NCBI RefSeq assembly: GCF_002810445.1 | Contig: NZ_NEXS01000003.1 | Coordinates: 248,001 to 312,000, forward strand | DNA length: 64,000 bases | Direction of reading: 5' to 3' | Source: Advenella sp. S44 | Lineage (GTDB): Bacteria; Pseudomonadota; Gammaproteobacteria; Burkholderiales; Burkholderiaceae_B | Shown here: piece after piece, positions 11,504 through 62,622 of the stretch | How positions within the stretch are numbered: the first letter of the stretch is position 1 | How the letters are laid out: each line of letters opens with the position of its first letter | Program-made: the position numbers and the translations under genes | The notes under the pieces: generated by a model | Told to the model about the DNA's origin: nothing | Databases searched by the model: none | Seen by the model: only the letters and a program-made list of their open reading frames with translations

Positions 11504-12055
11504 ACTCACCTGCGGCATTGGTATTGCCCGGCATTCTATGTCGGGCTGTGTGCTCTGATCGCTGGCGCCCTTCTGGTCAACGATTTGCTGGCTGGCGTTC
11601 GCTTGGACACGACGGTCTCTCGGGTGGCGGCGTCTGAGCTGACGGTCTCTGATGGGCCGCTCTCTGGGGGTGACGTTCTCGTGAACGGTTTTTCGTGAAT
11701 ACCTTTTGCGTCAATGACGTGGCGATAATCCGCGTGATTCAAAATGCATTGTTGTCTGATACTGCATGAGACTTATAAGTTCTGTAAGCGGCGCTGCTGA
11801 CGTGTCAGGCACACCCCGCTGCATGATGTCATCTCGTGCGTTCCAGCCCATTCCATTCATCCTTTCCGCCTCGCGCCGTCGCGCTGCCGCGTCGCCAAAT
11901 TATCACTGTTGTGCCCTTGCGGGCTGTTGCGGCTTTGAAAAATTTGATTGAGCGCACAAATTTTATGTATTTCTGACGCTTTTGGACTATCCAGGTTTTA
12001 TTCATTTGTTTCAGAATGTCGTCTTTTTCAATTTGGCATTCTGCCGGTCCTACCG
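11504..12055. other. Gene-free spacer before the AraC gene
   Basis: No convincing gene. At 11526-11546 an inverted repeat (GCCCGGCAT/ATGTCGGGC, 3-base loop) may end the upstream transcript, although no T-run follows. A copy of GACGGTCTCT occurs near 11611 and again at 11641. Short ORFs on both strands (60-70 codons) have no recognisable similarity or ribosome-binding site. The 11940-12055 part probably carries the AraC promoter. Confidence 0.4.
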
Positions 12056-13108
12056 ATGTTTCTCAAAGATGTTGTCAATGGGCTCTGCGGGCCATTCAAA
12101 CTGAATTCGGCCATGGCTGGTGCAGAGGTTACGCTGTCTTATTTCAATTCGGTCCTGCCGCAGCTCCTACCCAACACGCGGCTGCAACAAGCGACGCAAA
12201 CACCTTATCCGTTCAATGCGAATCTGGCAGCCTTTCCACTTACTTCACGGGCAAGCGTGGTCTTGCTGCAGGCAGAGCCTGCCTACCTGCAATTAGCGGC
12301 GCCCGCGCCAACGGACGTTGCCGTCGCTACCGAAAAGTGGTTTCTGGTGCGTGCAGGCGAGACCGCATACTTCACGGACAATGAGAACAAATGGACATTG
12401 CGGCCAGGAGACCTGCTGCTGATTCACAGCCGCAGTCCAGCCACGCTGTGCCCTCGCACCCGGCTGGGCTGTACAATCATTGCGCTGCAGGAACACAGTG
12501 TCGGACATTGGAAAATGTTGCTCCAGCAGGCACGCACCCGGTACTTTTGCGCAGACAGTGGCTGGGCCCGGGTGTTGTCGGTGTATATGCGGGAGTTGAA
12601 CGAGCGGTTCATGGACCGAATCGCCGCGGTGCCATCAGACCAGGGCGTCTGCCTGGAAACAGTTCTTTCACTGGCCGTTATGATGTTCGGACAAGCCCGG
12701 CAACTTGGGGCAGGAGAGTGGGCGTCTGATAAACGGCGGCAGGCACGATATAAACTGTACACTGACATCACAGTGTGGCTGTATTTGAATTTTGGTGAAG
12801 CTGGCCTGACAGGCCAGAAAGTCGCGCGGGAATTTCGTATTTCGGTGCGTACGCTGCACAAGCTGTTCCGCGAGTTCAACGATTCGGCATCGTTCGCCAC
12901 GTTCCTGAATGATATCCGGATGCAGAACGCCAGAAACATGTTGCGTGATTCTTCGCTCGTGCATATGACTGTCGGGGATATCGGCTGGCAGTGCGGCTTT
13001 TCGGATCCGGCGCATTTTGGCAAGGTCTTCAAAAAATGCCACTCAATCACACCGCGGCAAATGCGCGATATTGCACATGGTAATGGTCAGTCCCGGGTGT
13101 CATGCTAA
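12056..13108 (+). CDS. AraC-family transcriptional regulator
   Basis: 350 residues from the ATG at 12056; the frame is open to a TTG at 11948 but the extra 36 residues look non-conserved. The N-terminal half is a cupin-like sensing domain (VLLQAEPAYLQL, WFLVRAGETAYF). The C-terminus has the two AraC helix-turn-helix units: GQKVAREFRISVRTLHKLFREF and MTVGDIGWQCGFSDPAHFGKVFKK, ending SITPRQMRDI. Its target is unknown. A degraded second copy of its last ~45 codons lies 10 kb away (about 23190-23350), and its 3' neighbour is a remnant of a binding-protein gene. Confidence 0.9.
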   Translation: MFLKDVVNGLCGPFKLNSAMAGAEVTLSYFNSVLPQLLPNTRLQQATQTPYPFNANLAAFPLTSRASVVLLQAEPAYLQLAAPAPTDVAVATEKWFLVRAGETAYFTDNENKWTLRPGDLLLIHSRSPATLCPRTRLGCTIIALQEHSVGHWKMLLQQARTRYFCADSGWARVLSVYMRELNERFMDRIAAVPSDQGVCLETVLSLAVMMFGQARQLGAGEWASDKRRQARYKLYTDITVWLYLNFGEAGLTGQKVAREFRISVRTLHKLFREFNDSASFATFLNDIRMQNARNMLRDSSLVHMTVGDIGWQCGFSDPAHFGKVFKKCHSITPRQMRDIAHGNGQSRVSC

Positions 13109-13189
13109 ATGCTGTTGGCGCCGGCGTCGCATAGTCGTATTGCGCACAGGTCGCACTCCAGCAGTTATATTCAGAGCGGTTGCTTCGCA

Positions 13190-13310
13190 CGGCCGACCCA
13201 AAACCCATTCTTCGGCCATTGGATCGTATTGCTCAATGGATATAACATGCCTCTGGTGGTGACGATGGCAACCGTCATTGTGCAAGCGCAGACGGATATT
13301 TCGATTCAGT
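13190..13310 (-). pseudogene. Remnant of a PheC-like binding-protein gene, 3' end only
   Basis: Read on the minus strand, this stretch encodes NIRLRLH...EQYDPMAEEWVLG. It aligns with the C-terminus of the intact protein at 23438-24220 (DIRFKLY...GQYDQMAEKWIPA). The stop codon position is altered and no upstream part of the gene is present. It faces the AraC gene exactly as the intact binding-protein gene faces the AraC remnant at 23190-23350. See the first finding for the nucleotide alignment. Confidence 0.75.
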
Positions 13311-13376
13311 CGTGCGCTTTGCCAAGCTGGCACGACCGATCGTTGTAGTGGTTATAGCGGCACATGATTCAGTGAA

Positions 13377-14384
13377 TTAATCGAGAGTGATGTTCTCTCG
13401 CTTGATGACTTCAGCCAACTGCTTGGTCTCGTTCGTAATACGTGTGGCGAAATCCTTAGGGTTGGTCATGACAATGGTTCCTTGCGCACTCAACACCGTA
13501 TTTGCCGCCGGGACAGACATAGCCTTCCTGGCGTGTTCGTACAATTTATCCACAATGTCGGCGGGGGTGCCTGCCGGCGCCAGCAGACCCAACCAGAACG
13601 TCACATTGATATTCGGAAAGCCCGCTTCGGCCATCGTGGGAACATCGGGCATCTGGGAAATACGTTGCATCGGCGTTACCGCAAGCGCCTTGAGCTTTCC
13701 AGCGCGAATATGTGGAACGCTGGCCAAGGTGTCGAACGAGGTATCCACTTCGCCGGCAATCACTGCCATGCTCGCCTGCGATGCAGCCTTGTACGGGACA
13801 TGCGTGGCCTTGAACCCCCCGTCATTGCTCAACATTGCATACGCCAAGTGTGCGAGATTCCCTACACCGCCGGACCCGTAAGTCAGCTCAGACGGATGGT
13901 TCTTGGCAAATGCAACCAGATCCTTTACGGAGTCGATAGCGTGTTTTTTTGCCCACTCGGCGTTTACGTTCAGCACAAAAGGGGCATCCAACACTAGTGA
14001 AATTGGGGCAAAGTCCGTCGACTTGTACGGAGAATTCTTGTAAATCAACGGATTGCCGGTAATGCTGCTGCTATTTGTCGCCAATAGAGTGTAGCCGTCC
14101 GGCGCTGATCGGGCGACTTCCGTGGCACCAATGGAGCCGTTGGCCCCGCCTTTGTTTTCCACAATCACCGACTGTCCAAGAGATTTGGAAAGATTGTCGG
14201 CCAGCAGGCGAGCCATGGCATCGGTAATGGAACCCGCGGGAAAGGGGACCACGATTCGAATGAGCTTGGCAGGCCATTTTTTATCCTGGGCAAACGCCAT
14301 TGTGGAACTCAACCCAAATGCTGACACTCCCGTGACGCTTGCGGCTGCAATTAGAAAATCCCTACGCGAGCTGAACATAGCCAT
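13377..14384 (-). CDS. Bug-family periplasmic binding protein (TctC-like), Bug1
   Basis: 335 residues. The ATG at 14384 is chosen because GGAGA (14391-14395) precedes it with 6-base spacing; an upstream in-frame ATG at 14420 lacks this. The N-terminus FSSRRDFLIAAASVTG is a twin-arginine signal peptide. The mature part has Bug-family landmarks: KLIRIVVPFPAGSITDAMARLLA, VVENKGGANGSIGATEVARSAPDGYTLL and TYGSGGVGNLAHLA. Bug proteins usually bind carboxylates for TctAB permeases; none is in this window. It is the last gene of the minus-strand CoA operon. Confidence 0.92.
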   Translation of the reverse strand: MAMFSSRRDFLIAAASVTGVSAFGLSSTMAFAQDKKWPAKLIRIVVPFPAGSITDAMARLLADNLSKSLGQSVIVENKGGANGSIGATEVARSAPDGYTLLATNSSSITGNPLIYKNSPYKSTDFAPISLVLDAPFVLNVNAEWAKKHAIDSVKDLVAFAKNHPSELTYGSGGVGNLAHLAYAMLSNDGGFKATHVPYKAASQASMAVIAGEVDTSFDTLASVPHIRAGKLKALAVTPMQRISQMPDVPTMAEAGFPNINVTFWLGLLAPAGTPADIVDKLYEHARKAMSVPAANTVLSAQGTIVMTNPKDFATRITNETKQLAEVIKRENITLD

Positions 14385-14533
14385 GATATGTCTCCAAAAA
14401 GTTGACGAACAATAAAACAAAGGTTCAAGTAGCGATAGCTATTGGTAGCCCGGTACAACGCTCGCAGGGCTGACGTTTGGTGTCAATGGGAAGCCGCTAC
14501 TTGAGAAAAAATCAAAAAAACATGTTGTGATTC

Positions 14534-16987
14534 CTAGGTTACTTTCCTCGTTGCACAGGTGCCCGTGATTCCGCGATCCTCAAGTTCCTGTTGCTGCTCC
14601 TGGGTCATTCCAAGCACTCGCCAGAAGACCTCGCGGCTGTGTTCGCCCAGGGTGGGCGCCGGGCGTACAATCCGGGTTGGACTGTCCGTCTCTCTGAACC
14701 AGGGAGTCGTAGCCAGATACTCGCCCAAATAGGCGCGAGGTATCTTCGTAAAAAAACCTCTGTGTTTCAAATGCGGATCGTTCAGAACATGCCAGACTGG
14801 CCTGACCACGCCAGCGCCAACGCCGGCCGTTTGCAGCTTTCGCATGGCAGTGTCCGCAGATCGTTGCCTGGACCAAGCGCTTATCTGAGCATCAATCAGC
14901 TGTTGCTGGGAGCGACGGCCCTTAGCGTGGTTCATCGATAAATCTGTGCGGAAGTGATGAGCATGAATGACGTTGACCAAGGCTTGCCACTGCGTTTCGT
15001 TGGTAACGCTCAGGACTAGCCACTCGTCATTGCCTGCACATGGATATACACCGTGTGGGAAAAATATGGGGTGTGCATTACCGTTTCGCGGGGTGGTTTT
15101 CCCGCAAGCGGATTGCTCGACGATGAACGAGGCGGCCATTGGGAGCATGCATTCGACTTGCGACAGGTTAACGTGCCGCCCTTTCCCCGTGCGTGCTTTT
15201 ACGAATAGCGATAGGAGGGCAGCGGCGCCACCATTCCATCCGCCTATAGGATCGCCGTACGCGTACGAAGTGAGTGATGGCGGATTCTGTGGAAATCCGG
15301 TGTGATGCGGTAGGCCACTAGCCTGTTCAAGCGTACCGCCATAAGCCCGGGTGGAGCTCCACGCGTTGCCAGCGCCAAATGCGGGCATGGACACCATCAC
15401 CAATTGGCTATTTACCTTGGATAGGGCGGCATAATCAAGGCCCAGCTTGGAGAGCACCTCAGTTGAATAGTTTTCTATTACGATGTCAGCAGTTTCTACC
15501 AAATCGAGTAAAACCGCGCGGCCTTCTTGGCGCGTCAAATCCAGAGTAATGCCAAGCTTGTTTCGGTTCATCAGCGCAAAGTTCGAGTTTTTTTCGTACA
15601 GTCGCTCTTGGTAAAACGCTTCGGTGTAGTGCGTCCCTCTCCACCAATCCGGATACTGAGTGCCTTCTACTTTGATGACTTCGGCGCCAAAGTCCGCAAG
15701 GGTTCGCGCAGCCAGCGGCCCTGCCCAGCCCATGGTCAAATCGATCACGCGAATTTTGCGAAGCGGCGGCACCATCACCTCTGCGGCAGTTCGATGTACT
15801 TTTAAAGCCAGCGCTTGGTCGGTGCGATAAAACAGATTGTCTGCGCCCATCGTCGGCGCAGCACCACCTGGCAACGGCCCGGCATCACCGAGCGGAAATG
15901 GAACGACTACACCTTCAAATTGGCTGTTCCCGGACGTCACAGGAACGAACGCGCCTCGCTCACGATGAACTTGCTGCGCAAGCAGTTCTTCCATTGTCGG
16001 CACGATAACAGCCGGAAATTTGGCCTTGCCAAGCTCCTCAAACCATTCATCGGCCGTCTTGGCGAGCAACGCCGGAACTAAGAATTCATCAATCTCGTCG
16101 GCATGCTTTATGCGTGTCGGTCCATTGACGAATCGCGGGTCCTGAGCATGCTGTGGATGCCCCACTGCCGAACAGAGCGCAGCCCATTGAGGGCCGGTGT
16201 GCGCGAAAATGCCAATCCAGCCTTTGCGGGTCTTGTAGATACCGCCCGGGTGCGTTGTGCAAAACCGGTTGACGCCCAGTCGCGCTTTGGGATGCCGCCC
16301 ATCTTGCACCATACCGGCCTCCATCTCGACCACAGAGAAAGCGACCTCATGAATGCTAAGCACGTAGCGACGGCTTCCATCGGATTCCCCTAGCAGCGCT
16401 GAGATGGCGCTTGAGAACGCGCCGATGCCTGCAACAATTTCAGTCTGTACATCGTGCGGTAGATGGGGCGGCCCTTCCACCGCGCCGCTACCGTAAACCG
16501 CACCGGCCAAGGCGCGGCAAACCGCGGGCGTTCCCACGAAATCGCTGTACGGACCGCTTTCACCGAACCAGGTCAAACACACTTCAATCGGCACGTTTTC
16601 GCGGTTCTCCGCTACTCTAGCGCCATAAACAGGGCGCTTCAGCACCTCAATGCCTTCATCTAGCGCTCTGGCGTCAAGAACCACGTCGCAGGTTTTCGCC
16701 AGTCGAGACAACCAGGCGTGTTCCTCAAAACGTTTGCCTCCCAACGTGACGTTGCGTTTATTTGTGTTGAGCCAGGCGTTCAACGCGCTTTGCGATTCGG
16801 TGTCTGAACTTGTCAGTAGCGGGGGAACGGCCCGGAGCGGATCTCCTTCGGAATCCTCCACCTTGATGACCTCGGCGCCAAAATCCGCAAAAATTTTGCC
16901 TGCATAAGCTAACGCCGCGCCACTGCCGATCTCCAGGACGCGCAGTCCTGCTAGAGCAAGCTGTCTGTCAGGTTCGTGCTTCATCAC
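14534..16987 (-). CDS. Tandem-domain CaiB/BaiF (family III) CoA-transferase
   Basis: 817 residues, about twice the usual size, because two family III CoA-transferase domains are fused: residues about 10-390 (LAGLRVLEIGSGAALAYAGKIFADFGAEVIKVE) and about 405-805 (IRVIDLTMGWAGPLAARTLADFGAEVIKVEG). The family moves CoA between carboxylic acids. Usual family members have a catalytic Asp in a GYD-like motif; by eye the equivalent segments here read TPAVCRALAG (first half) and RAYGGTLEQASGL (second half), with no obvious Asp. It sits 30 bases downstream of the carboxylase gene in the same operon, so it probably activates the carboxylase substrate or recycles CoA. Confidence 0.88.
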   Translation of the reverse strand: MMKHEPDRQLALAGLRVLEIGSGAALAYAGKIFADFGAEVIKVEDSEGDPLRAVPPLLTSSDTESQSALNAWLNTNKRNVTLGGKRFEEHAWLSRLAKTCDVVLDARALDEGIEVLKRPVYGARVAENRENVPIEVCLTWFGESGPYSDFVGTPAVCRALAGAVYGSGAVEGPPHLPHDVQTEIVAGIGAFSSAISALLGESDGSRRYVLSIHEVAFSVVEMEAGMVQDGRHPKARLGVNRFCTTHPGGIYKTRKGWIGIFAHTGPQWAALCSAVGHPQHAQDPRFVNGPTRIKHADEIDEFLVPALLAKTADEWFEELGKAKFPAVIVPTMEELLAQQVHRERGAFVPVTSGNSQFEGVVVPFPLGDAGPLPGGAAPTMGADNLFYRTDQALALKVHRTAAEVMVPPLRKIRVIDLTMGWAGPLAARTLADFGAEVIKVEGTQYPDWWRGTHYTEAFYQERLYEKNSNFALMNRNKLGITLDLTRQEGRAVLLDLVETADIVIENYSTEVLSKLGLDYAALSKVNSQLVMVSMPAFGAGNAWSSTRAYGGTLEQASGLPHHTGFPQNPPSLTSYAYGDPIGGWNGGAAALLSLFVKARTGKGRHVNLSQVECMLPMAASFIVEQSACGKTTPRNGNAHPIFFPHGVYPCAGNDEWLVLSVTNETQWQALVNVIHAHHFRTDLSMNHAKGRRSQQQLIDAQISAWSRQRSADTAMRKLQTAGVGAGVVRPVWHVLNDPHLKHRGFFTKIPRAYLGEYLATTPWFRETDSPTRIVRPAPTLGEHSREVFWRVLGMTQEQQQELEDRGITGTCATRKVT

Positions 16988-17017
16988 AGTCTGTTCCCTT
17001 GTATTTGTATGCCATGT

Positions 17018-20000
17018 TTACCAGGTGTCGACAAAGGATCGACGGGGACGAGCCGCGCGCAACGGTGCGGAAGCGATGCCTTGACGAATCCATGTGCGCG
17101 TTTCGGCGGGATCGATGACTGCGTCTATCTCAGTGGTGGACGCAACGTTAATAGCATGACCACGTTCATATGCACGTGCTACCAATTGATCGTAAAGCGC
17201 TTGTCGTTCTGGCCCTTCAGGAACGTTTTCGAGTTCTTTTTTGAAGCCCAGGCGGATTGAGCCTTCCAATCCCATCGGCCCAAATTCTCCTGTTGGCCAA
17301 GACACCGAGCAGCTGGTGCAACGAAAACCACCGCCTGCCATGGCCATCGCCCCAAGTCCATAGCCCTTTCGCAGCGCAATGGCCAGGATTGATACACGCA
17401 ATTTGGCTGCCGTTACAAACATACGCGATACGTGGCGCACCTGGGCCTTCGCTTCTTCGTCGGGACCCACCATGAATCCGGGAGTATCGATCAGCGAAAT
17501 GATCGGAAGGCCATGTACATCACAAAGATTCATAAATCGGGCCGCCTTGTCCGCCGCATCGGCGTCAATGGCACCGCCCAAATGATGCGGGTTATTGGCG
17601 ATGATGCCCACCGGTTGGCCTTCGACACGCGCAAGCGCTGTATGCATGCCATGTCCGAAGCCCGAACGAAGCATCAATACACTGCCCATGTCGGCAATGC
17701 CTTCAATGACACGACGACTGTCGTAGACCCGTAAACGATTTTCCGGGACCATGTGGCGAAGTTCCAGCGGATTGGGCGCTGACCAGTCTTTTGTTCTACC
17801 CTGAAACATTGAAAGATAATGTTTCGCAACCGTAACGGCATGCGCCTCGTTGTCCACGAGGATATCGATGACACCGTTCGCAAATTGCACGCTCGCCGGG
17901 CCGACCTCTTCAGGCTTGAATATGCCCAGGCCGCCGCCCTCAATCATCGCGGGCCCGGCCATTCCGATATTGGAATTCTTGTCGGCGATGATGACGTCAC
18001 ATACGCCCAGAAATGCAGCGTTGCCAGCAAAACATCGACCTGACACGATACCCAGCAGTGGAACTTCGCCGCTGAGTTCCGCCAAGGCCGCAAATGAAGG
18101 CTGGTACAACCCGGACACAAATGGGAAATCCACGTCTCCAGGGCGGCCGCCCCCGCCTTCAGCGAATAGTACAAGCGGCATCTCGTCACGGCGTGCACGC
18201 TCGACCAGACGATCGGTCTTGATGTGATTGCGCTTTCCCTGCGTGCCTGCCAGAACTGTTGCATCATAGGCCATCACTGCACTTAGGGAGCGTTCATAAC
18301 CGAACTGGGCACCGTTGATGTTGCCAATACCCGTGACGATACCGTCAGCCGGTGTGTTGACAATCAAATCCTCTTTTGTGCGACGACTTGCCTGTGCGGC
18401 CACGACTAATGCGCCATACTCGACAAACGAACCGTCATCACACAGATCAGCAAGGTTTTCGCGGGCTGTTCGTTGTCCGCGTCCGCGCCGCTTTGCCACT
18501 GCGTCAGGGCGAGCGTCGTCGTACAGAATGGCATGGCGATCAAGTACGGCTTGCAAATCTGCGCGGATGGTCGTCAAATCGACCGTTTCAACGGCCAGCT
18601 CTGCGTCTGTACCGTCCAACGCCTGTTCCAGCACCACGAGGATATCGCCCTCAGCCGTCTGGCTGCCGTTATCTGCCCGTATTTCCGCGACACGTCCATT
18701 GAATTCAGCTACCACGGAGTGTTCCATCTTCATCGCTTCGATGACCGCAATGGGCTGGCCTTTCAGGACCGTATCGCCTGTTTGAACCGACACGTCGATA
18801 ATACGTCCGCTCAGTGGCGCGCAGCAGGCAACGAGCCCTTCGGCAAGGTCTTCGTGTACGATATTTTTCGCTATTGGCGACGAGGCGGTGGTGGGAACCG
18901 TCTCGCTAATGAGCTGATTCTGCGCCTCTTGCTCAATCGCGAGTGCAGACGCAGCAGCAATCAATTCCCCAAGAATCGATTCGATATAACGGGTATGGTT
19001 TTTTTGATAGAGAAAATCATCGCGATCGACAAGTGCCTTAAGTAAATGAATGTTTGTCGAAACACCCGTAATCCTGAACTCAGCCAAACTGCGTCGCAAG
19101 CGCCTGACAACGTGTGAAAAATCATCACTGTTGCTCGACACAATCAACTTGGCTAACAGCGTATCGAACGCCGGCGCCGGACAGTAGCCGCTATAGGCAT
19201 GCGTATCCACTCGCACATCAGGGCCTGTGGGCGGATCAAAACACGCCAGAGGACCGTGTGCCGGTCGTGTCAAGCCATTGGCGTGCGTCGACTCTGCCGT
19301 CACTCGTACTTGAATCGCATAGCCCTTTGTCTTTGGGGAAGTCGCAGGATCCAGTCCCAACGATTTGAGACTCTTTCCTTGTGCAATGCCGATTTGCAGC
19401 ATGACCAGATCGACCCCGGTGACTTGTTCGGTGATTGTGTGCTCGACTTGAAGTCTGGGATTGGCCTCGATGAAAACGAAATCTGTTTGTACGCCGCTTT
19501 CATTTTCTTCAACGAGAAATTCAAACGTACCAAGACTGCGATATTTCACCGTTGAGGCCAGTTTGCTTGCTGCGGCAAGAATGTCTGTTCGCAATTGGGT
19601 CTGCAGAACAGGGCTCGGCGCTATTTCAACCACTTTCTGGAACCGGCGCTGCAAGGTGCAATCGCGCTCGCCGAGCGCAACGACATGTGATCCGTCCCCC
19701 ACAATTTGCACCTCGATATGACGCGCGCGGTTTACCAAGCGTTCCGCGTAAAGGGTATCTACCCCAAATGCGGACATCGCCTCCGAGCGGCAGCGAGCAT
19801 AGAGTTCAGGGATTTGATCTCTGGATTTTACGACGCGCATGCCGCGACCTCCGCCACCGCCAACCGCCTTGATGACGATGCCAACGCCGCCCTGCTCATC
19901 GAAGAATTGCGCAATGTCATCCAGGGTGGCGCCTCCATGGGTAGCTGGCATCACAGGTACGCCGCACTCCCTGGCTAGTTTCAATGCGCTGCCCTTGTCT

Positions 20001-20335
20001 CCGAACAAAGCCAGTTGCGTGACTTCTGGACCAATGAAGGTAATACCTGCAGCAGCGCACGCTTGAGCAAAATCTGGCCGCTCGCTCAGAAAACCGTAGC
20101 CGGGGTGAATGGCATCGCAGCTTTCACTTTTTGCGACAGCGATAATGGCATCGATATCGATATATGCGCCGGGACCCGCTGCATCCAATGCGACAGATGA
20201 GTCCGCAAGGATTCGGTGTCGTGAACTGGAGTCATCGCTTGAATAAATCGCGACGCTTTGCAGCCCCAGATCACGTATGGCGCGAAGAATACGAACAGCA
20301 ATTTCGCCACGATTGGCAACCAATATTTTCTTCAT
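17018..20335 (-). CDS. Single-chain biotin-dependent acyl-CoA carboxylase (BC-BCCP-CT)
   Basis: 1105 residues carrying all parts of an acyl-CoA carboxylase on one chain. The biotin carboxylase domain (about 1-450) has the ATP loop GGGGGRGM, RHIEVQ and EANPRLQVEHTITEQVTG. The biotinyl domain has EAMKMEH, with Lys536 the expected biotin site. The carboxyltransferase N and C domains span about 600-1105 (RTARENLADLCDDGSFVEYG, IDTPGFMVGPDEE). The start ATG at 20335 follows AGGAAA and gives MKKILVANRGEIA. Usual acetyl/propionyl-CoA carboxylases split these parts over two chains; the one-chain layout resembles bacterial long-chain acyl-CoA carboxylases. The substrate is unknown. Confidence 0.93.
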   Translation of the reverse strand: MKKILVANRGEIAVRILRAIRDLGLQSVAIYSSDDSSSRHRILADSSVALDAAGPGAYIDIDAIIAVAKSESCDAIHPGYGFLSERPDFAQACAAAGITFIGPEVTQLALFGDKGSALKLARECGVPVMPATHGGATLDDIAQFFDEQGGVGIVIKAVGGGGGRGMRVVKSRDQIPELYARCRSEAMSAFGVDTLYAERLVNRARHIEVQIVGDGSHVVALGERDCTLQRRFQKVVEIAPSPVLQTQLRTDILAAASKLASTVKYRSLGTFEFLVEENESGVQTDFVFIEANPRLQVEHTITEQVTGVDLVMLQIGIAQGKSLKSLGLDPATSPKTKGYAIQVRVTAESTHANGLTRPAHGPLACFDPPTGPDVRVDTHAYSGYCPAPAFDTLLAKLIVSSNSDDFSHVVRRLRRSLAEFRITGVSTNIHLLKALVDRDDFLYQKNHTRYIESILGELIAAASALAIEQEAQNQLISETVPTTASSPIAKNIVHEDLAEGLVACCAPLSGRIIDVSVQTGDTVLKGQPIAVIEAMKMEHSVVAEFNGRVAEIRADNGSQTAEGDILVVLEQALDGTDAELAVETVDLTTIRADLQAVLDRHAILYDDARPDAVAKRRGRGQRTARENLADLCDDGSFVEYGALVVAAQASRRTKEDLIVNTPADGIVTGIGNINGAQFGYERSLSAVMAYDATVLAGTQGKRNHIKTDRLVERARRDEMPLVLFAEGGGGRPGDVDFPFVSGLYQPSFAALAELSGEVPLLGIVSGRCFAGNAAFLGVCDVIIADKNSNIGMAGPAMIEGGGLGIFKPEEVGPASVQFANGVIDILVDNEAHAVTVAKHYLSMFQGRTKDWSAPNPLELRHMVPENRLRVYDSRRVIEGIADMGSVLMLRSGFGHGMHTALARVEGQPVGIIANNPHHLGGAIDADAADKAARFMNLCDVHGLPIISLIDTPGFMVGPDEEAKAQVRHVSRMFVTAAKLRVSILAIALRKGYGLGAMAMAGGGFRCTSCSVSWPTGEFGPMGLEGSIRLGFKKELENVPEGPERQALYDQLVARAYERGHAINVASTTEIDAVIDPAETRTWIRQGIASAPLRAARPRRSFVDTW

Positions 20336-20410
20336 GATTTCCTGATGTCTTGTCTTAATAATGCTCTTGCTCAACGCTGGAATTTGCACGTCAGAGGCTA
20401 AGTAAGAAAT

Positions 20411-20851
20411 TTACCGGTTTCTCGGTACCAGTCTGAAGACAGCACGCGCAGCAGCCAATACCACGCCATTGCCGTTCTGGACTTCGCCCTCGCAAAACGC
20501 AATACTTCTGCCTCGCCGCTTGCAGGTGGCAATAATGTCTACGTCTGATGTGGCAGGCTCATAAAAATGGGTCGACATATCAATTGTTGCTGCCCCGACA
20601 TTGAGCGGGTCGTGCGCTCGCGCCACGACACTCAATGTGAAGTCCAGTGCACTCATCAACGCACCGCCGTGAATGTCACCGCGACTATTGACAAGGTCGC
20701 AGTTCAATTTCAAGTGTGTACGGCAATAACCACCTTCCAGACTGATGCTTTGCAGGCCAATATGGGTCATGAATGGCACATCAATCCCAAAATGTCCCAA
20801 TTGACATTCATCGACTTCTATAGACGACGGCTGATTTTTTACACTGTTCAA
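20411..20851 (-). CDS. PaaI-family hotdog thioesterase
   Basis: 146 residues. The hotdog-fold PaaI signature is clear: LKLNCDLVNSRGDIHGGALMSALDFTLS, with the G.IHGG.L...D motif around residues 60-75. PaaI-type enzymes hydrolyse acyl-CoA thioesters, often to release CoA from dead-end intermediates. It lies 75 bases upstream of the carboxylase and 40 bases downstream of Bug2 on the same strand, so it is part of the CoA operon. Confidence 0.88.
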   Translation of the reverse strand: MNSVKNQPSSIEVDECQLGHFGIDVPFMTHIGLQSISLEGGYCRTHLKLNCDLVNSRGDIHGGALMSALDFTLSVVARAHDPLNVGAATIDMSTHFYEPATSDVDIIATCKRRGRSIAFCEGEVQNGNGVVLAAARAVFRLVPRNR

Positions 20852-20891
20852 ACTTGAATCCTCTAACGTGTGCTTAAAGATAAATCATGGG

Positions 20892-21890
20892 TCATTGTGC
20901 GGTCACATGCGCCTTGTCCACGACCTGCTGCCACTTATCGAGTTCTGCATGAATAAACTCTGTAACCTGAGTCGGTGCTAACTGCACGGGAATAGAGTTG
21001 TTGTCGGTCAACCATTTCACATTCCGTTGTGCAGCATTGGCCTGTTGGGCGACGTTATTGAGCTTGGTGACTATTTCCTCTGGCAAGCCGGGCGGCCCAA
21101 ACAGTCCAACCCAAGCTTGAGACTCATAGCTGGGATATCCGGATTCAGCAATGGTGGGGATGCTTGGCAATGAAGGCAATTGCTGCTTTGATGTCACCGC
21201 CAGTGCCTTGGCCTTGCCGTTTTGAATAAATGCTGAAGCAGATGTCGCGTCCAGGAATGCAGACGGAATCTGCGCACCAACGAGGTCCGTTGCAGCGGGA
21301 GCAGCGCCTTTGTAGGGGATATGGCGCAGGTTTGCACCGGTTACGAGTTTGAATAGTTCGCCCGACAAGTGTGCAGAGCCGCCCACGCCACTTGAGCCAA
21401 AGGCGAGGCCTCCCGGCTGTTTTTTCGCATAATTGACGAATTCCTTTACGGTGTTTACGGGTGAATCGGCCGGTACCAATAACACGTTAGGCGCAAGCGC
21501 CAGGATCGCTATGTTTGAGAAATCAATCTTTGGATCATAAGGAAGATCCGGTTGCAATGCCGGGTAAATAACGTGCTGCGTAGCCGTTACCAATAGCGTA
21601 TATCCGTCGGGTTTCTCACGCGCAACCACCGCGCTACCTATTTGCCCACTTGCACCAGCTTTGTTCTGAACGACCACGGTGGTGTTCAGCGCACTGCCCA
21701 GATCAAGCGCCAGGCGACGTGCAATCAAGTCTGTGAATCCGCCGGGAGCGAACGGCACAACGATGTTAATGGGTTTCTCTTTCGGCCATTCCGCAGCAGA
21801 GGCGCTATTTGAAAAGCCCAACGTCGATGCAATGATAAGCATCGGAAAGACTGAGAACACTCGGCGGTTCGGTTTGTAACTGGTCAGCAT
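20892..21890 (-). CDS. Bug-family periplasmic binding protein (TctC-like), Bug2
   Basis: 332 residues from the ATG at 21890, preceded by ACGGAG with good spacing; an upstream in-frame ATG at 21920 is less likely. A Sec-type signal peptide (FPMLIIASTLGFSNSASAAEW) is followed by Bug landmarks: PINIVVPFAPGGFTDLIARRLA, VVQNKAGASGQIGSAVVAREKPDGYTLL and AFGSSGVGGSAHLSGELF. It is the first gene of the five-gene minus-strand operon and is divergent from the LysR gene. It and Bug1 are only moderately similar, so they are not a recent duplication. Confidence 0.93.
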   Translation of the reverse strand: MLTSYKPNRRVFSVFPMLIIASTLGFSNSASAAEWPKEKPINIVVPFAPGGFTDLIARRLALDLGSALNTTVVVQNKAGASGQIGSAVVAREKPDGYTLLVTATQHVIYPALQPDLPYDPKIDFSNIAILALAPNVLLVPADSPVNTVKEFVNYAKKQPGGLAFGSSGVGGSAHLSGELFKLVTGANLRHIPYKGAAPAATDLVGAQIPSAFLDATSASAFIQNGKAKALAVTSKQQLPSLPSIPTIAESGYPSYESQAWVGLFGPPGLPEEIVTKLNNVAQQANAAQRNVKWLTDNNSIPVQLAPTQVTEFIHAELDKWQQVVDKAHVTAQ

Positions 21891-22234
21891 TTTGTCTCCG
21901 TAAATTTTGCCCTCATTCACCGTTATATTTGTTAATAACGACGCTGGAGCGTTTTTATTGAATGCTCAACTTCTGACTGATACCGTTTGCCCTAGCCGTT
22001 ACATCACAAAGAGCCGGTGTTGCCCCTTAGAAACCTTGGATCACATGGCAGCAGTGTGGCTGGATGCGGGCTAGCGCTAACCGAATCTCTTTGACAACAA
22101 ATCATGGTTTGTCGTGCTCATGGGCATGGTATTCAGTGGTGTAATAGTAATTTCCATACTTCTGTGACACAATTCACATCTTTCTCTAACAGCTATAGCG
22201 GTTCGGCATAGATCTCAATCGGGGTGAACTGACG
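21891..22234. promoter_or_regulatory. Divergent control region between Bug2 operon and LysR gene
   Basis: 344 bases with no gene. By analogy with other LysR-type regulators, the divergent regulator should bind here and control both directions. Several AT-rich stretches are present (21940-21960 and 22140-22200), but I found no single T-N11-A box that stands out enough to name. Confidence 0.5.
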
Positions 22235-23164
22235 ATGGACTTAAGACAACTTCGGACCATCTTGGCTATTGCCGAAACGGGGAGTCTGACTAAAGCTGCT
22301 GAGCTTCTTCACGTCGTTCAGCCGGCGTTATCCAGACAATTGAAGCAGCTGGAGGATGAACTGGGTACCCCATTGTTTGAAAGAAACCGTCTCGGAATGG
22401 TGCTGACGGTTCCCGGTCGCCGCTTTGTTGACCAGGTGCGGGTTTCATTAAAGGGACTTAATCACGCGAAGGCTGAGATTGGAGCGGCCGCGGCGAATTT
22501 GATGGGGTCAGTCGCTGTTGGTATGCTGCCAGGTCTTGCCGCGGCGCTGGCCGGACCACTGGTCACGTCTTTGCGCCGGCAATACCCGGATTTGAAAGTT
22601 CGAATCGCTACCGGTTTCTCGGATTTCCTGCAGGACGGCCTTGAAGACGGCAAGCTGGACATTTGCCTGATGGGCGACTACCTGCAATCCGAGATGCTCC
22701 TGACGTCCCCCGTTTTTCGCGAACCCATTTACGTTGTCGGCTTACCCGCTTGCGGATTATCACAATTGCACCCCGTCACCCTTGCAGAAGTTGCAAAGAG
22801 ACCCATGGTGGTTCCTGAAGCGCAGAGTCTTCGCAATGCTATTGACCGTGCGTGCACCATCATTGGGGTGAACCTGAATCTGGTGGCTGAATCAGATAGT
22901 ACCGCCGTCATTCTCGACCTGGTTGAGCGTGGCGTAGGTTATACCATCCTGCCGGTCATGCCGATTACTCCTATGCTGAAGGCCAGGCGCATCGTGGGCG
23001 CACCTATCATCAGTCCTCACCTTCGCCGGACCGTGATTATCGGCAGCCCGGTAATCAATCGCAATCCGCATACGGTCAGCGCACTTCAAGGAGAACTTAT
23101 CGGCTTGCTTCGGCCGTACGTTCAGCAATTTAGATGCGTGGGTGTGGAGTGGCTGGCTGATTGA
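22235..23164 (+). CDS. LysR-type transcriptional regulator of the CoA operon
   Basis: 309 residues. N-terminal winged HTH: MDLRQLRTILAIAETGSLTKAAELLHVVQPALSRQLKQLEDELG, followed by a substrate-binding effector domain from about residue 90. It is divergent from the Bug2 gene, so it most likely regulates the carboxylase operon, with the imported acid or its CoA ester as inducer (inference). Its stop lies only about 25 bases before the AraC remnant that marks the right edge of the module. Confidence 0.92.
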   Translation: MDLRQLRTILAIAETGSLTKAAELLHVVQPALSRQLKQLEDELGTPLFERNRLGMVLTVPGRRFVDQVRVSLKGLNHAKAEIGAAAANLMGSVAVGMLPGLAAALAGPLVTSLRRQYPDLKVRIATGFSDFLQDGLEDGKLDICLMGDYLQSEMLLTSPVFREPIYVVGLPACGLSQLHPVTLAEVAKRPMVVPEAQSLRNAIDRACTIIGVNLNLVAESDSTAVILDLVERGVGYTILPVMPITPMLKARRIVGAPIISPHLRRTVIIGSPVINRNPHTVSALQGELIGLLRPYVQQFRCVGVEWLAD

Positions 23165-23189
23165 TATGCCATGCTGCTGAAGCAGTGTG

Positions 23190-23350
23190 TCAATCTGGGT
23201 CTGGCAAGCCGGAGCCCGACAGATGACGTTGACGCTATCGGTCCGCGCTTGCGGGTTCGCCGATAGGGGCGCATGTCGGCAAGACTGCCCAAAAAAAGAT
23301 TCGATCATCTCCGCGCAAATGCGGGATATTGTGCGCGGCGATGATGAATC
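23190..23350 (+). pseudogene. Frameshifted remnant of an AraC-family gene, 3' end only
   Basis: In one frame the DNA encodes CGFADRG and KKDSIISAQMRDI, which align without gaps to CGFSDPA and KKCHSITPRQMRDI of the intact AraC protein at 12056-13108 (12 of 27 residues identical over the block). Adjacent frames carry other parts (DAIG upstream, HVGKTAQKK in the middle), showing frameshifts. No 5' part of the gene is present. It faces the intact PheC-like gene. By eye the DNA similarity continues through the spacer into the neighbour. Confidence 0.8.
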
Positions 23351-23437
23351 CGGATGTCATATTAAGTGTTGCTCTCGTCGACAGCTACACGACACGCACT
23401 TTGAAGTAGTTATTTTCAGCACGGTCACTCAGCGCAG

Positions 23438-24220
23438 TTACTTCGCCGGATCGGCCGGAATCCATTTTTCGGCCATTTGATCGTACTGGCCACTGGCTTT
23501 GAGCAGGTGCATCCACTGGTCCACATATAGTTTGAAGCGTATGTCGTTGTCAGGGATCAGATAGCCCATTTCGGCGTATTGCAGTGGCTGCTCGGGATTG
23601 ACGGCACACAGTTTCGGATTCAGTTTACTTTGCACACGGGCCTCGGCTGCCTCGGTCACAAATGCATCTGCGCTGCCGTTGGCCACTTCATCAAAAATGG
23701 TCAGATTGTCCTTATGCATGGTCAGCGACGCATTGGGCAGCATGGTGCGCGCAAATTTCTCGTTGCTGCCACCAGGGTTGGCCACTATCTTTACCTCTGC
23801 ACGATTGAGAGCTTCGATACTTTGGTACTTTTCCTTATCTTCGCAACGGACAATCGGTGTTTTTCCGTTCACCATATAGGGCGCGCTGAAAAACGCCTGT
23901 CTTTGGCGTTCCGTGGACACGGAAATGCCGCCTGCGCCGATATCACATTTGTCTGATGTGAAATCGCTCATCAGATTCGACCAACTGGTCTTGACAATAT
24001 TCATTTTGGCGCCCAAAGATTCGGCCAGCGCATTCATCAGATCAATATCCAGGCCTTCGAAATGCCCGTCCTTGTCAAAGCTGAAGGGTTTGTAATCGCC
24101 TGGCGTACACACGCGCAGGACCTTGCTGTCCGTGACTTGTTTGAGGGTGTTGGGCGCAGTCTGTGCCAGCAGCGATAACGGAAAGGTGCAGAGCAGGGCA
24201 GCAAGCAGGGTCTTTTTCAT
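23438..24220 (-). CDS. Periplasmic solute-binding protein, PheC (cyclohexadienyl dehydratase)-like
   Basis: 260 residues from the ATG at 24220 (GGAGA upstream); an earlier in-frame ATG at 24355 would add a non-signal extension. A signal peptide (MKKTLLAALLCTFPLSLLAQ) precedes an amino-acid ABC-type binding fold. The sequence resembles the PheC branch: LRVCTPGDYKPFSFD, SWSNLMSDFTSDKCDIGAGGIS, NGKTPIVRCEDK and VANPGGSNEKFAR. Glu193 in VTEAAEA is at the position where PheC carries its catalytic Glu, by my recollected alignment. It could therefore be a periplasmic prephenate/arogenate dehydratase or a plain binding protein; no permease gene adjoins it. The gene's 3' end is duplicated as a remnant at 13190-13310. 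Confidence 0.82.
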   Translation of the reverse strand: MKKTLLAALLCTFPLSLLAQTAPNTLKQVTDSKVLRVCTPGDYKPFSFDKDGHFEGLDIDLMNALAESLGAKMNIVKTSWSNLMSDFTSDKCDIGAGGISVSTERQRQAFFSAPYMVNGKTPIVRCEDKEKYQSIEALNRAEVKIVANPGGSNEKFARTMLPNASLTMHKDNLTIFDEVANGSADAFVTEAAEARVQSKLNPKLCAVNPEQPLQYAEMGYLIPDNDIRFKLYVDQWMHLLKASGQYDQMAEKWIPADPAK

Positions 24221-24354
24221 GGTCGATCTCCAAAGACAAGGAAAAGGGAAAAAAAACAGCAAGTGTGGCGCAATATTGCCTGCAGCACAATCAGGCTTAT
24301 CCCAATATGCGGGTACACTAGCTGGTGTATGTTTAACATTCACGATTGAAAACA

Positions 24355-24852
24355 ATGAGTTCTTCGCCCTGGCTTACCGGTTTTGCGCCCATTCACTCAC
24401 CGCATATCACACATCTGATACTGGGCAGTTTCCCATCGGAAGCCTCGCTTTCGCGTCAGGGTTATTACGGACATCCGCAAAACCAGTTCTGGCGCCTGAT
24501 GGGGGCGATTCTGGGGGAGCCCATGGCGACGCTGGATTATCAGACACGTACGGAAATTCTGTTGGCCAATCGGATCGGGCTTTGGGACGTCTATTCCGGC
24601 TGCGAGCGCATTGGCAGCCTGGACAGTGCGATTCGTCGGGGACAGCTCAATCCGCTGCATGTTTTGTTTGAAATGGCGCCCGCGCTGCGCCATGTCGGCT
24701 TCAATGGCAAGGCTGCAGCAAAAGCGGGGCAGGCGCATATTCCGTCTCATATCCGCGCGCAGACACTACCCTCGAGCAGCCCTGCTTACACGCTTGCCTT
24801 TGATGCCAAGCTGCAGCAGTGGCGACAGTTTTTCAGCCACGATCAGGCATGA
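24355..24852 (+). CDS. DNA-deoxyinosine (hypoxanthine) glycosylase, UDG family 6
   Basis: 165 residues from the ATG at 24355 (an in-frame TTG at 24346 is possible). The sequence has the UDG-fold landmarks of the HDG family: HLILGSFPSEASLSRQGYYGHPQNQFWRL near the N-terminus, IGLWDVYSGCERIGSLD, and the C-terminal TLPSSSPAY motif. The family excises deoxyinosine, arising from adenine deamination, from DNA. It is divergent from the PheC-like gene and has no obvious operon partner. Confidence 0.88.
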   Translation: MSSSPWLTGFAPIHSPHITHLILGSFPSEASLSRQGYYGHPQNQFWRLMGAILGEPMATLDYQTRTEILLANRIGLWDVYSGCERIGSLDSAIRRGQLNPLHVLFEMAPALRHVGFNGKAAAKAGQAHIPSHIRAQTLPSSSPAYTLAFDAKLQQWRQFFSHDQA

Positions 24853-59691: not shown

Positions 59692-62622
59692 ATGGCGATC
59701 TCAATACAGGACCTTATACGTAACGCTGATCCTTCATGGCAGTCGCTGGATAAGACTCCATTGGGAACAGGATCCGCATCCCAGGGTCAGTTGGAAGATC
59801 TGGTGCTCGATTTGCTGCCGCAACTGAAGGCGCTGCATGCGCAGCAGCGTGTTTACGCAGTCTGGTCGCCACAAACTGTGTTCCTGGATCCGGTCGGACG
59901 TGCCAAGTTGCTTCCCGGCGCGGGCCAGCCTTTTGTCAAGCAGGGTGCCCAAGCCATAGCAGGTTGCGAATCTTTTGCCGCCATCGAATTGCAGACCGAC
60001 GATCCGGCCTGGCGTATCGGCCCCTGGACCGATGTGTACGGCCTGGGGTCGCTGCTGCGGGCTCTGATTTGTTCAGAGGCACCGCAAAGCCCGGTACGCC
60101 GTTTTGTCAAGGATACCCAAGAGCCGCTGGTCGCATCTGCGCCAGCGGGGTACTCACGCCAGTTTCTGCGCACCGTCGACCTGAGTACCGTGCTGCAATC
60201 ATCGTTGCGGCTGCAGTCGGTCGATGAGCTGTCGGCCATGATGGGCTTGTCGGCAGCCAGCCCGGGTTCGCCGGCGCATCCATCGGCTGTACCAGGGGCC
60301 GTCGCAGGCGGGCTGGCAGCGCAGGCAATTCTGAGTCCAGCCGCGGGTCATACGGCATCCAATGCGGCGGCAGACGAGGCACCGGCAACCGGCCAGGCAA
60401 CGGCGCAGCCGGCGACACAGACACCCCAGGCGCACGACGCTGCGCAGGGGCAAGCAGGTCTGGCCGACGCGGCCGGGACAGAACAGGGCCGGCAGGAGCA
60501 GGCCAGACAAGAACAAGCGAAGCAGGAACAGACTGTACAGGAACAAGCCAGCGGCGAGCAATTGCGGCAAGAGCAGATACGACAAGAACAGGCCAGGCAG
60601 GCACAAGCTAGTCAGGAAAAAGCTAGCCAGGAAAAAGCCAGGCAAGAACAGGCCCAACATGAGCAGATTGACCAAGAACAAGCCAGACAGGAACAACTTG
60701 AGCAGGAACAGGCCAGACAGGAACAGGCCAGCGAAGAACAAAAGCGGCAGGAACTGATCCGGGCTGAAGCGGCAAAAGAGGCACAGGCCAGTGCCGAAAA
60801 ATCGCCAACACCGTCCATGACAACCAAGTCGCATGATGAGGTCGCCGCCGCCAGCGACGCGCAATACCGCGAAGCGCCGCTCTCCGAGTCGTCACCGGAT
60901 GAGCAGGACCAGGCCGGACCAGAAGATGACAGCCCTACCCAAGCCGCTACAGAACCGGCCAAGAGCGAATCGCGTTTGCAGGCCGGCTCAGCCGGTGGTG
61001 GAGGTCGTGGTGGTGCGGGTGCTGATGATAGCGCCGGCGATCCCCCGCCGCCAGGCGGGGAAAGAAAAAAGGCGCCGGTCCTGCTGGTCGCGGTTGTACT
61101 GGCCGCCATCGCAGCAGGCGCGTATTTTGGGTTTGGCGGACAAGTGCCGAGCGATAGTGCCCCGGAAACGGCAGCGACAGATCGCTCAGCGCCTTCAGCG
61201 ACGCCAAGCGATTCGAGCTCATCGCCGGCAGCGGGTCAGTCCGGCGAGTCTTCCACTGATACGCAGACGTCTACTGCAACAACAGCCGAAAATGCTACGA
61301 CACCGGAATCAGAGTCGGCAACAGCCGGTTCAAGCGCCGCTGCAGATAGCGCTGCTTCAAACGATACTGGTAATCCGGAAAGCGCGGCCACCTCTGATGC
61401 GGCCGCGCAAATTTCTTCGACCGCAGCGACACCGGAAACTGCGGCCCCGTCTGATTCTGCCGAACAGATTTCTTCAACTTCCGCTACACCGTCAGCTGCG
61501 ACTTCCGCTGCGGACCAGGGCGCAGGCAGTGGGGCGGCAACGTCAGACTCGACACCTGCTGCGCCGGCAACAGAACCTGCAGTGACTGAGTCGGCTGCAG
61601 GTCCGGACAGTGCTGCATCAGTTGCAACTACGGAAGGCAGCGCATCATCATCAACGGATACCAGCTCGATGTCCACGGGGCAGGCGGGCGATCCGGCAAG
61701 CTCCGGTGATACCGCTGCGTCTGGCGACTCGGCCAGTGAGTCTGGCAACCCGCAAGTGACTGCCGACCAGGCGCGCCGCGAGCAAGAGGCCAGGCGCATC
61801 GAAGAGGCGGCCAAAGCGGAAGAGGCGCGATTGGCCGCTGAGAGCCAGGCTTCGCCTTTGACATCGTCTTCCTCCCCTGACACGGGTTCTGGTGCGCCGG
61901 CGACCGATACTACGACATCGACCACACCATCGGCATCGCCCACATCAGAAGCTACATCAGAGGCCGCATCGGCACCGACCGCGTCATCGGAGCCGGCCAG
62001 CACGACAGCGCAGGAAACCGGCACGGCGGATGCGGGTGACACAGGCGCAGCCACCGACTCACAAACGTCTGCTGCCACGGAGTCGTCTGCCGCGCCGGTC
62101 ACAGGCAATACCAACGGTGCGACGGCACCGGCAGGGCAGGCGGGCGCGAGTGCAGCAACTGCGGCTGCCGCTGCTGCCTCGGGCGGTCCGGCGGCTGCGG
62201 CGACCAATACCGCACCCGCCTCAGCCGCGAATGAGTCCGCTGAGATGAAAGCGGCAGATGCCGCTCGCGAAGAAGATCAGAACCAGCTTGCCCAGGAAAA
62301 GGCAGCGCTGGAAAAGGCGCGTCAGGAAGATGCACGCCTGAAGAAGGAGCGTGAACGCCGCCGAGCTGCCCAGGCGCGCGCCGAGCGCAACGCAGGCGCT
62401 ACGAGCAATGCATCAAAAGGCACAGTTTCATTTGTGATCCGGCCGTGGGGTAATGTATTCATCAACGGACGTTCGCGTGGTGCCAGTCCGCCATTTCGCA
62501 GTCTGCGGCTGGATCCGGGCACCTATAATGTCATGATTACAAACGGAGATTTGCCGCGCTATGTTCGGGTGATTACCGTCAAGGCCGGTGAAAATATCAC
62601 AGTTGTACATCAATTCCAGTAA
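59692..62622 (+). CDS. T6SS-linked pseudokinase with Gln-rich repeats, TM and PEGA domain
   Basis: 976 residues. The first 190 residues resemble the C-lobe of a Ser/Thr kinase (VYAVWSPQTVFLD, WRIGPWTDVYGLGSLLRALIC), but the HRD, DFG and APE motifs are not preserved and there is no N-lobe with a glycine loop, so it should not phosphorylate. Residues about 264-350 are a Gln/Glu/Ala/Arg heptad-like repeat (RQEQAR, KQEQ), probably coiled coil. A membrane helix spans about 461-483, followed by about 400 residues of Ser/Thr/Ala-rich sequence and a short charged coil. The C-terminal 65 residues form a PEGA-type domain (GTVSFVIRPWGNVFINGRS). It may be a regulator or a scaffold of the secretion system; it takes the place where PpkA kinases are found. 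Confidence 0.8.
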   Translation: MAISIQDLIRNADPSWQSLDKTPLGTGSASQGQLEDLVLDLLPQLKALHAQQRVYAVWSPQTVFLDPVGRAKLLPGAGQPFVKQGAQAIAGCESFAAIELQTDDPAWRIGPWTDVYGLGSLLRALICSEAPQSPVRRFVKDTQEPLVASAPAGYSRQFLRTVDLSTVLQSSLRLQSVDELSAMMGLSAASPGSPAHPSAVPGAVAGGLAAQAILSPAAGHTASNAAADEAPATGQATAQPATQTPQAHDAAQGQAGLADAAGTEQGRQEQARQEQAKQEQTVQEQASGEQLRQEQIRQEQARQAQASQEKASQEKARQEQAQHEQIDQEQARQEQLEQEQARQEQASEEQKRQELIRAEAAKEAQASAEKSPTPSMTTKSHDEVAAASDAQYREAPLSESSPDEQDQAGPEDDSPTQAATEPAKSESRLQAGSAGGGGRGGAGADDSAGDPPPPGGERKKAPVLLVAVVLAAIAAGAYFGFGGQVPSDSAPETAATDRSAPSATPSDSSSSPAAGQSGESSTDTQTSTATTAENATTPESESATAGSSAAADSAASNDTGNPESAATSDAAAQISSTAATPETAAPSDSAEQISSTSATPSAATSAADQGAGSGAATSDSTPAAPATEPAVTESAAGPDSAASVATTEGSASSSTDTSSMSTGQAGDPASSGDTAASGDSASESGNPQVTADQARREQEARRIEEAAKAEEARLAAESQASPLTSSSSPDTGSGAPATDTTTSTTPSASPTSEATSEAASAPTASSEPASTTAQETGTADAGDTGAATDSQTSAATESSAAPVTGNTNGATAPAGQAGASAATAAAAAASGGPAAAATNTAPASAANESAEMKAADAAREEDQNQLAQEKAALEKARQEDARLKKERERRRAAQARAERNAGATSNASKGTVSFVIRPWGNVFINGRSRGASPPFRSLRLDPGTYNVMITNGDLPRYVRVITVKAGENITVVHQFQ
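60480..60745 (+). repeat. Gln-rich repeat array in the pseudokinase gene
   Basis: Units of 15-21 bases such as CAGGAACAGGCCAGACAG recur more than ten times with drift, encoding R/K-Q-E-Q-A repeats. Such arrays change length by slipped-strand pairing, so copy number may vary between strains. Confidence 0.75.

Follow-up and report, generated by a model that had tools for sequence, protein, structure and literature searches.

A carboxylase/CoA-transferase module between two diverged copies of an AraC/solute-binding-protein gene junction in Advenella

Our analysis concerns a 64,000-nucleotide stretch of the Advenella sp. S44 genome (contig NZ_NEXS01000003.1, positions 248,001 to 312,000; hereafter the window), in which a module of acyl-CoA carboxylase, CoA-transferase, and associated genes separates an AraC-family regulator gene from a convergent gene for a family-3 solute-binding protein. 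On either side of the module lies a copy of the AraC/binding-protein junction. The reading we consider likely is that the module inserted once, in the ancestor of five of the ten Advenella genomes in our sample (the window's own and G001-G009), into the convergent gene pair, and that about 560 bp of the target, comprising AraC from residue ~245 to its stop codon, the spacer, and the 3' end of the binding-protein gene, was left in two copies as direct repeats. The source of the duplicated DNA would have been the target, or a close relative of it, rather than a foreign element, and the redundant half-genes would then have decayed. In two descendants (G003 and G008), the repeats would have been held alike by recombination in the form of ectopic gene conversion, while those of the window would have diverged too far to recombine well. 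Later, the module would have been exported to the other clade of the genus, carrying with it a piece of the AraC scar. Seen directly are the homologous junctions, the empty site of G005, the AraC joint beside the LysR stop (three genomes), the scar of one relocated copy, and, in two genomes, closely matching repeats; we infer that there was one event, in what order the steps came, that gene conversion caused the likeness, and which way the module was exported.

Homology of the two junctions and an empty site

The initial annotation had described a co-linear similarity between the two junctions, judged by eye at about two-thirds identity, in which AraC is whole and the binding-protein gene a fragment on the left and the reverse holds on the right. 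We aligned positions 12901-13380 with 23151-23600, using 1000 dinucleotide-preserving shuffles of the second segment as the control. The two junctions matched co-linearly with a local score of 64 (shuffles: mean 20.5, standard deviation 2.4, maximum 31), and a second scoring scheme gave 58 (mean 11.5, standard deviation 1.4, maximum 17). BLASTN of wider segments returned two co-linear pieces (51/69 identical, E = 3e-6, and 77/108, E = 1e-5), and a relaxed local alignment had 183 of 271 bases identical (67.5%), in line with the estimate by eye; the open reading frames (ORFs) and scrap alignments likewise agreed with the described arrangement of whole and partial genes. The match takes in the 3' end of AraC, then the spacer, which is non-coding, and then the convergent binding-protein gene at its 3' end, with the order kept. 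The helix-turn-helix ends of AraC proteins are conserved, which might invite a reading of the similarity as chance or common protein domains only. We give that reading practically no credence, since a match that crosses the spacer and continues into an unrelated convergent gene cannot be explained by shared domains.

Orthologues of both genes of the pair were found in six of the ten Advenella genomes (the window's own, G003, G004, G005, G007, and G008), which form clade A; the AraC orthologue of G003 is in two pieces, split by an island, and the binding-protein gene of G004 is also in pieces. Clade B consists of G001, G002, G006, and G009, which are smaller genomes. A search of the same ten genomes located the CoA-transferase of the module in seven (the window's own, G002, G003, G004, G006, G007, and G008) and did not find it in G001, G005, or G009. 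In five of the six pair-bearing genomes, the module sits between AraC and the binding-protein gene. In the sixth, G005, the two genes are adjacent and lack the module, with 76 bp between the matches and both outer flanks syntenic. The initial annotation had suggested that a genome of exactly this kind would support an insertion. In an rpoB tree, G005 branches outside the five inserted genomes with a bootstrap of 92, and the clade B genomes are distant. Because G005 lies outside the inserted five, the insertion is probably the derived state. The empty site, the position of G005, and the lack of a transposase or integrase in the eight genes of the locus thus sustain the earlier proposal that the module entered an ancestral AraC/binding-protein pair. 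The empty site is known only once, however, and loss of the module from G005 through recombination between the repeats, following an insertion that predates the whole clade, would look the same. Long perfect repeat stretches are present in G003 and G008, and such a loss would be scarless, but it requires an extra event given the placement of G005 in the rpoB tree, and we regard it as unlikely.

Extent, origin, and divergence of the duplicated junction

Scraps of both genes were scored against 100 single-base shuffles each, with 60 used for tests of the module's left tail. The DNA following the LysR-type regulator gene, whose stop codon forms the right edge of the module, aligned with the AraC genes of the clade at scores of 79 in the window, 153 in G003, 53 in G004, and 111 in G008 (shuffle maxima 30-34), beating all 100 shuffles in four of the five inserted genomes. 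The left binding-protein scrap did so in three of the five (the window, G003, and G008). Overall, the scraps of both sides reached significance in the window, G003, and G008, the right one alone did so in G004, and neither did in G007. The AraC scrap starts no more than ~10 bp from the LysR stop, at the codon corresponding to window residue 244-245, in G004, G008, and the relocated module copy of G006. The same start is visible in G003 by eye only, the joint is eroded in the window and G007, and the left joint is obscured by deletions across the inserted genomes. The start shared by the relatives suggests that the original duplication corresponded approximately to window positions 12677-13239, or some 560 bp, with its left limit taken from those relatives and its right limit from the window, where the binding-protein alignment ends at ...CAATGG. 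Thus, the homology initially described is real, but the original duplication would have been larger than was first supposed, with the right AraC scrap once reaching back to the LysR stop; in the window this scrap is alignable from about 23220-23227, and the portion before that is reconstructed from relatives. The left tail of the module is about 130-137 bp long in the window, G003, G004, and G008 and shorter in G007 (its ends, like those of the spacers, were picked by eye), and its similarity to the binding-protein gene was not above that of 60 shuffles.

The start of the AraC scrap also bears on the possibility that the whole AraC/binding-protein pair was tandemly duplicated first, with the module inserting between the copies later and the inner genes decaying. 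The scraps are indeed the outer 3' ends expected of decayed inner copies, and relatives keep longer AraC scraps than the window does. However, G004, G008, and G006 share one internal codon as the start of the scrap next to LysR, from which it follows that truncation of the copy preceded the arrival of the module or happened as the two were joined. A prior duplication of the whole pair therefore seems improbable to us.

As for the source of the second copy, AraC relatives of at least 55% identity occur in 6 of the 268 genomes of the family, all of them in clade A, and five more family genomes have AraC matches at E <= 1e-25 with 26-32% identity. Outside clade A, 40 genomes have binding-protein matches, and no AraC at E <= 1e-5 was found in the 10 of these neighbourhoods that were examined (one stretch ended at a contig end). 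Because the closer relatives are confined to clade A, the duplicated junction is probably endogenous. This speaks for duplication of the target as the module inserted, or for a crossover with a circle that arose inside the clade, and against a foreign donor. The first proposal of the initial annotation, a donor with a related junction of its own, is not favoured by this distribution; its alternative, in which the module split a duplicated pair, agrees better with it, and a clade-made circle with a single crossover would also serve. Composition was set aside as a test of foreign origin, as GC content showed no contrast (49.5-57.7% in 1-kb windows across 13000-22999, with similar flanks).

Integration of the Campbell type, in which a circle bearing the module and a segment of both junction genes enters through a single crossover at the resident junction, would yield exactly a module between direct repeats with no need of a transposase, and such circles would form via the repeats of G003 and G008, whose longest perfect stretches are 94 and 49 bp, respectively. 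Nevertheless, the circle must already join the module to the junction, which leaves the first event unexplained, and no AraC relative of at least 55% identity was found outside the clade among the 268 family genomes. In addition, the left copies are not set apart from the right by their spacer identities, a comparison of identities rather than a tree of the copies. We are doubtful that the repeats arose by this route.

Returning to an insertion with endogenous target duplication, the subsequent fate of the repeats differs among the inserted genomes. The left and right copies within one genome are highly alike in G003 (161/172 identical) and G008 (105/111), and the longest perfect stretch between copies is only 10 bp in the window, 11 in G004, and 8 in G007. 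Left and right spacers share 67/69 positions in G003, 71/79 in G008, 40/53 in the window, and 53/74 in G004, and spacers of different genomes are 65-88% identical. A 27-bp gap is common to both G003 copies and found in neither G008 copy. Ectopic gene conversion is the simplest reading of the likeness in G003 and G008, with recent re-insertion as the alternative. Efficient RecA recombination takes about 25-50 bp of identity, and since the window copies share a perfect stretch of just 10 bp, the window module is probably locked in. One could also imagine the module as a transposase-free mobile cassette, its repeats made at the first insertion and kept alike by recombination, which leaves as a circle with one junction copy and re-enters empty sites of the clade. 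We think this very unlikely; if true, the history of the module would differ from that of its flanks, as in G007.

Module copies at other sites

Besides the five inserted clade A genomes, 18 genomes carry the CoA-transferase. The neighbourhoods of eight were examined, and six of these (G006, G002, G097, G016, G044, and G087, leaving out G048 and G238) were tested for the AraC scar. In G002 and G006 the module lies at other sites, and close AraC and binding-protein matches were not found in these genomes. Even so, the DNA after LysR in G006 matches AraC over about 41 bp, with a score of 53 versus a shuffle maximum of 30. The initial annotation had looked to the module in other contexts for traces of the junction; such a scar is kept by one of the two relocated Advenella modules, that of G006, and by none of the four other-genus modules tested (out of six other-genus modules retrieved). 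In the module tree, G002 and G006 are nested among the inserted genomes, and constraining the five clade A modules to be monophyletic is rejected by the approximately unbiased (AU) test (p = 0.024), as is that constraint plus the species topology (p = 0.0008). The G006 scar and this nesting point to export from the present site, and its direction is best read as a transfer out of clade A into clade B.

Several results, in addition to the single empty site, weigh against the history we favour. The AraC scrap after LysR is not significant in G007 (score 17, 100 shuffles), nor is the left binding-protein scrap in G007 or in G004 (15 versus a shuffle maximum of 18). The G007 module is 79-81% identical to the others, compared with 86-88% for its outer flanks to G004 and G008, and it may have been replaced or separately gained. 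The margin that argues for conversion is clear in G003, but the G008 spacers are 90% identical within the genome versus a best between-genome value of 88% (46/52, to a G003 copy). Among the exported copies, the AraC scar of G002 is not significant (27 versus a shuffle maximum of 29), and the binding-protein scrap is absent at significance from both G002 and G006 (12 and 11 versus 18). Finally, bootstraps inside the module trees are low (26-62 for branches among clade A modules), and the AU p-value is moderate.

Outside Advenella, the best match in the carboxylase alignment was 55% among the best 80 of 594 stretches. In three other-genus neighbourhoods (G044, G016, and G087), no thioesterase match was present within the 20 kb examined, and the second TctC gene has its best match 3-4 kb past LysR, an order unlike that of the Advenella module. 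Plasmids were considered as vehicles and rejected: 61 of 72,556 plasmid records matched at E <= 1e-100, the best at 72% (Cupriavidus) and none close to the Advenella copy, in a search from which the records closest to the window's genome may be missing.

Gene content and comparison with known systems

The features of the locus are collected in Table 1. The region between the junctions had been described as a single LysR-controlled operon, and it does consist of one divergent LysR gene and five contiguous minus-strand genes. From its gene families, the module looks like a pathway in which, we presume, an organic acid is taken up, activated by CoA transfer, and carboxylated. Of the 1123 residues of the carboxylase, 21-1103 match the long-chain acyl-CoA carboxylase of PDB 4rcn (1062.6 bits, with E given as 0). 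The two are alike in combining biotin carboxylase, carrier, and carboxyltransferase in one chain with a nearly full-length match, and unlike in that the Advenella gene shares its operon with those of a two-domain CoA-transferase, a thioesterase, and two TctC proteins. The true AraC start is likely near 12056, judging from relatives by eye. For the binding protein, no name as specific as the earlier 'PheC' is supported; its best NCBIfam model is cystine binding protein at 100.5 bits, below the cut-off of 312.

Table 1. Features of the module and its flanks in the window
Feature	Coordinates	Strand	Evidence
AraC-family regulator from the ancestral pair, whole; left duplication copy in its 3' part	11948..13108	+	386-aa ORF; Pfam HTH_18 5e-17
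Left junction copy: AraC from residue ~244 to stop, spacer, binding-protein 3' scrap	12677..13239	+	left limit inferred from G004/G008/G006
3' scrap, about 60 bp, of a second binding-protein gene copy	13180..13239	-	score 26; shuffles mean 12.6, sd (standard deviation) 1.3, max 17 (n=100)
Module left tail	13240..13376		without detectable similarity to the binding-protein gene
TctC/Bug-type solute-binding protein	13377..14420	-	Pfam TctC 3e-67
Two-domain family III (CaiB-like) CoA-transferase	14534..16987	-	Pfam CoA_transf_3 in two stretches, 3e-158
Single-chain acyl-CoA carboxylase: biotin carboxylase, biotin carrier, carboxyltransferase	17018..20389	-	Pfam domains
Hotdog thioesterase	20411..20851	-	Pfam 4HBT 8e-12; TIGR00369 47.6 bits, cut-off 36.6
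Second TctC/Bug-type solute-binding protein	20892..21920	-	Pfam TctC 4e-71
LysR-type regulator, divergent from operon; stop codon is module right edge	22235..23164	+	Pfam HTH_1, LysR_substrate
Right junction copy, eroded: AraC 3' scrap, spacer, binding-protein 3' end	23168..23496	+	AraC alignment score 79 vs shuffle max 33
Whole family-3 solute-binding protein of the ancestral pair ('PheC-like')	23438..24355	-	Pfam SBP_bac_3 2e-28

As the initial annotation had stated, no transposase or integrase is visible, at least in a Pfam search of the eight genes that run from AraC through to the binding protein (smaller ORFs were not scanned), and no tRNA was found in the 64-kb window. Insertion sequence (IS) genes flanking the module were likewise absent among the genes tested at the window site; G006 has one IS66 end, the other side being off the contig. 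That end encodes 74 aa from the C-terminal part of an IS66 transposase (PF13817, 4e-21) and lies about 36-258 bp beyond the module's left gene. On the opposite side, ~490 bp beyond LysR, the start of a short ORF at the contig end resembles an IS66 orfA and has no Pfam hit. Kilobases from the left end of the G006 module (G006:C2:1-20000, L181) are genes that by eye resemble a defence island (patatin-like, TIR-like, and related).

The island that splits AraC in G003 (G003:C1:848950-880430, L216 and L217) is ~31 kb long and interrupts the gene at about residue 250-260. Three adjacent genes lie at one end of it; two match the phage-integrase family, the third has only weak matches to integrase SAM-like domains, and further genes resemble peptide synthetases by eye. 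This island lies within about 20-50 bp of the start of the module's AraC scrap, and the spot has therefore been broken twice. Elsewhere in the window, self-comparison revealed imperfect direct repeats at 60472-60801 (71-73% over 80-129 bp, at offsets 135, 165, and 180).

Literature searches on the carboxylase, on gene conversion of island repeats, on target duplication combined with a single crossover, and on the concerted evolution of repeats in flanking DNA showed no precedent for this locus among the titles and abstract openings listed. It is a well-resolved but fairly ordinary example of a familiar way in which gene islands arise. Its interest is that insertion scar, empty site, likeness or decay of repeats, and scar-marked export are all legible from sequence in one locus, which makes it a useful test case for how integrase-free islands insert and leave. 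The IS66-type context of the G006 module recalls composite transposons, whereas the window site lacks such a gene among those tested. In general kind, the locus resembles genomic islands that sit between long direct repeats and come or go through homologous recombination: an accessory set of genes with direct repeats of the flanking chromosome on both sides, a sister lineage with an empty site, and a patchy distribution. Unlike such islands, the Advenella module has no integrase among its genes and no tRNA in the window, an internal gene junction of ~560 bp serves as its repeat, and one exported module took a scrap of that junction with it.

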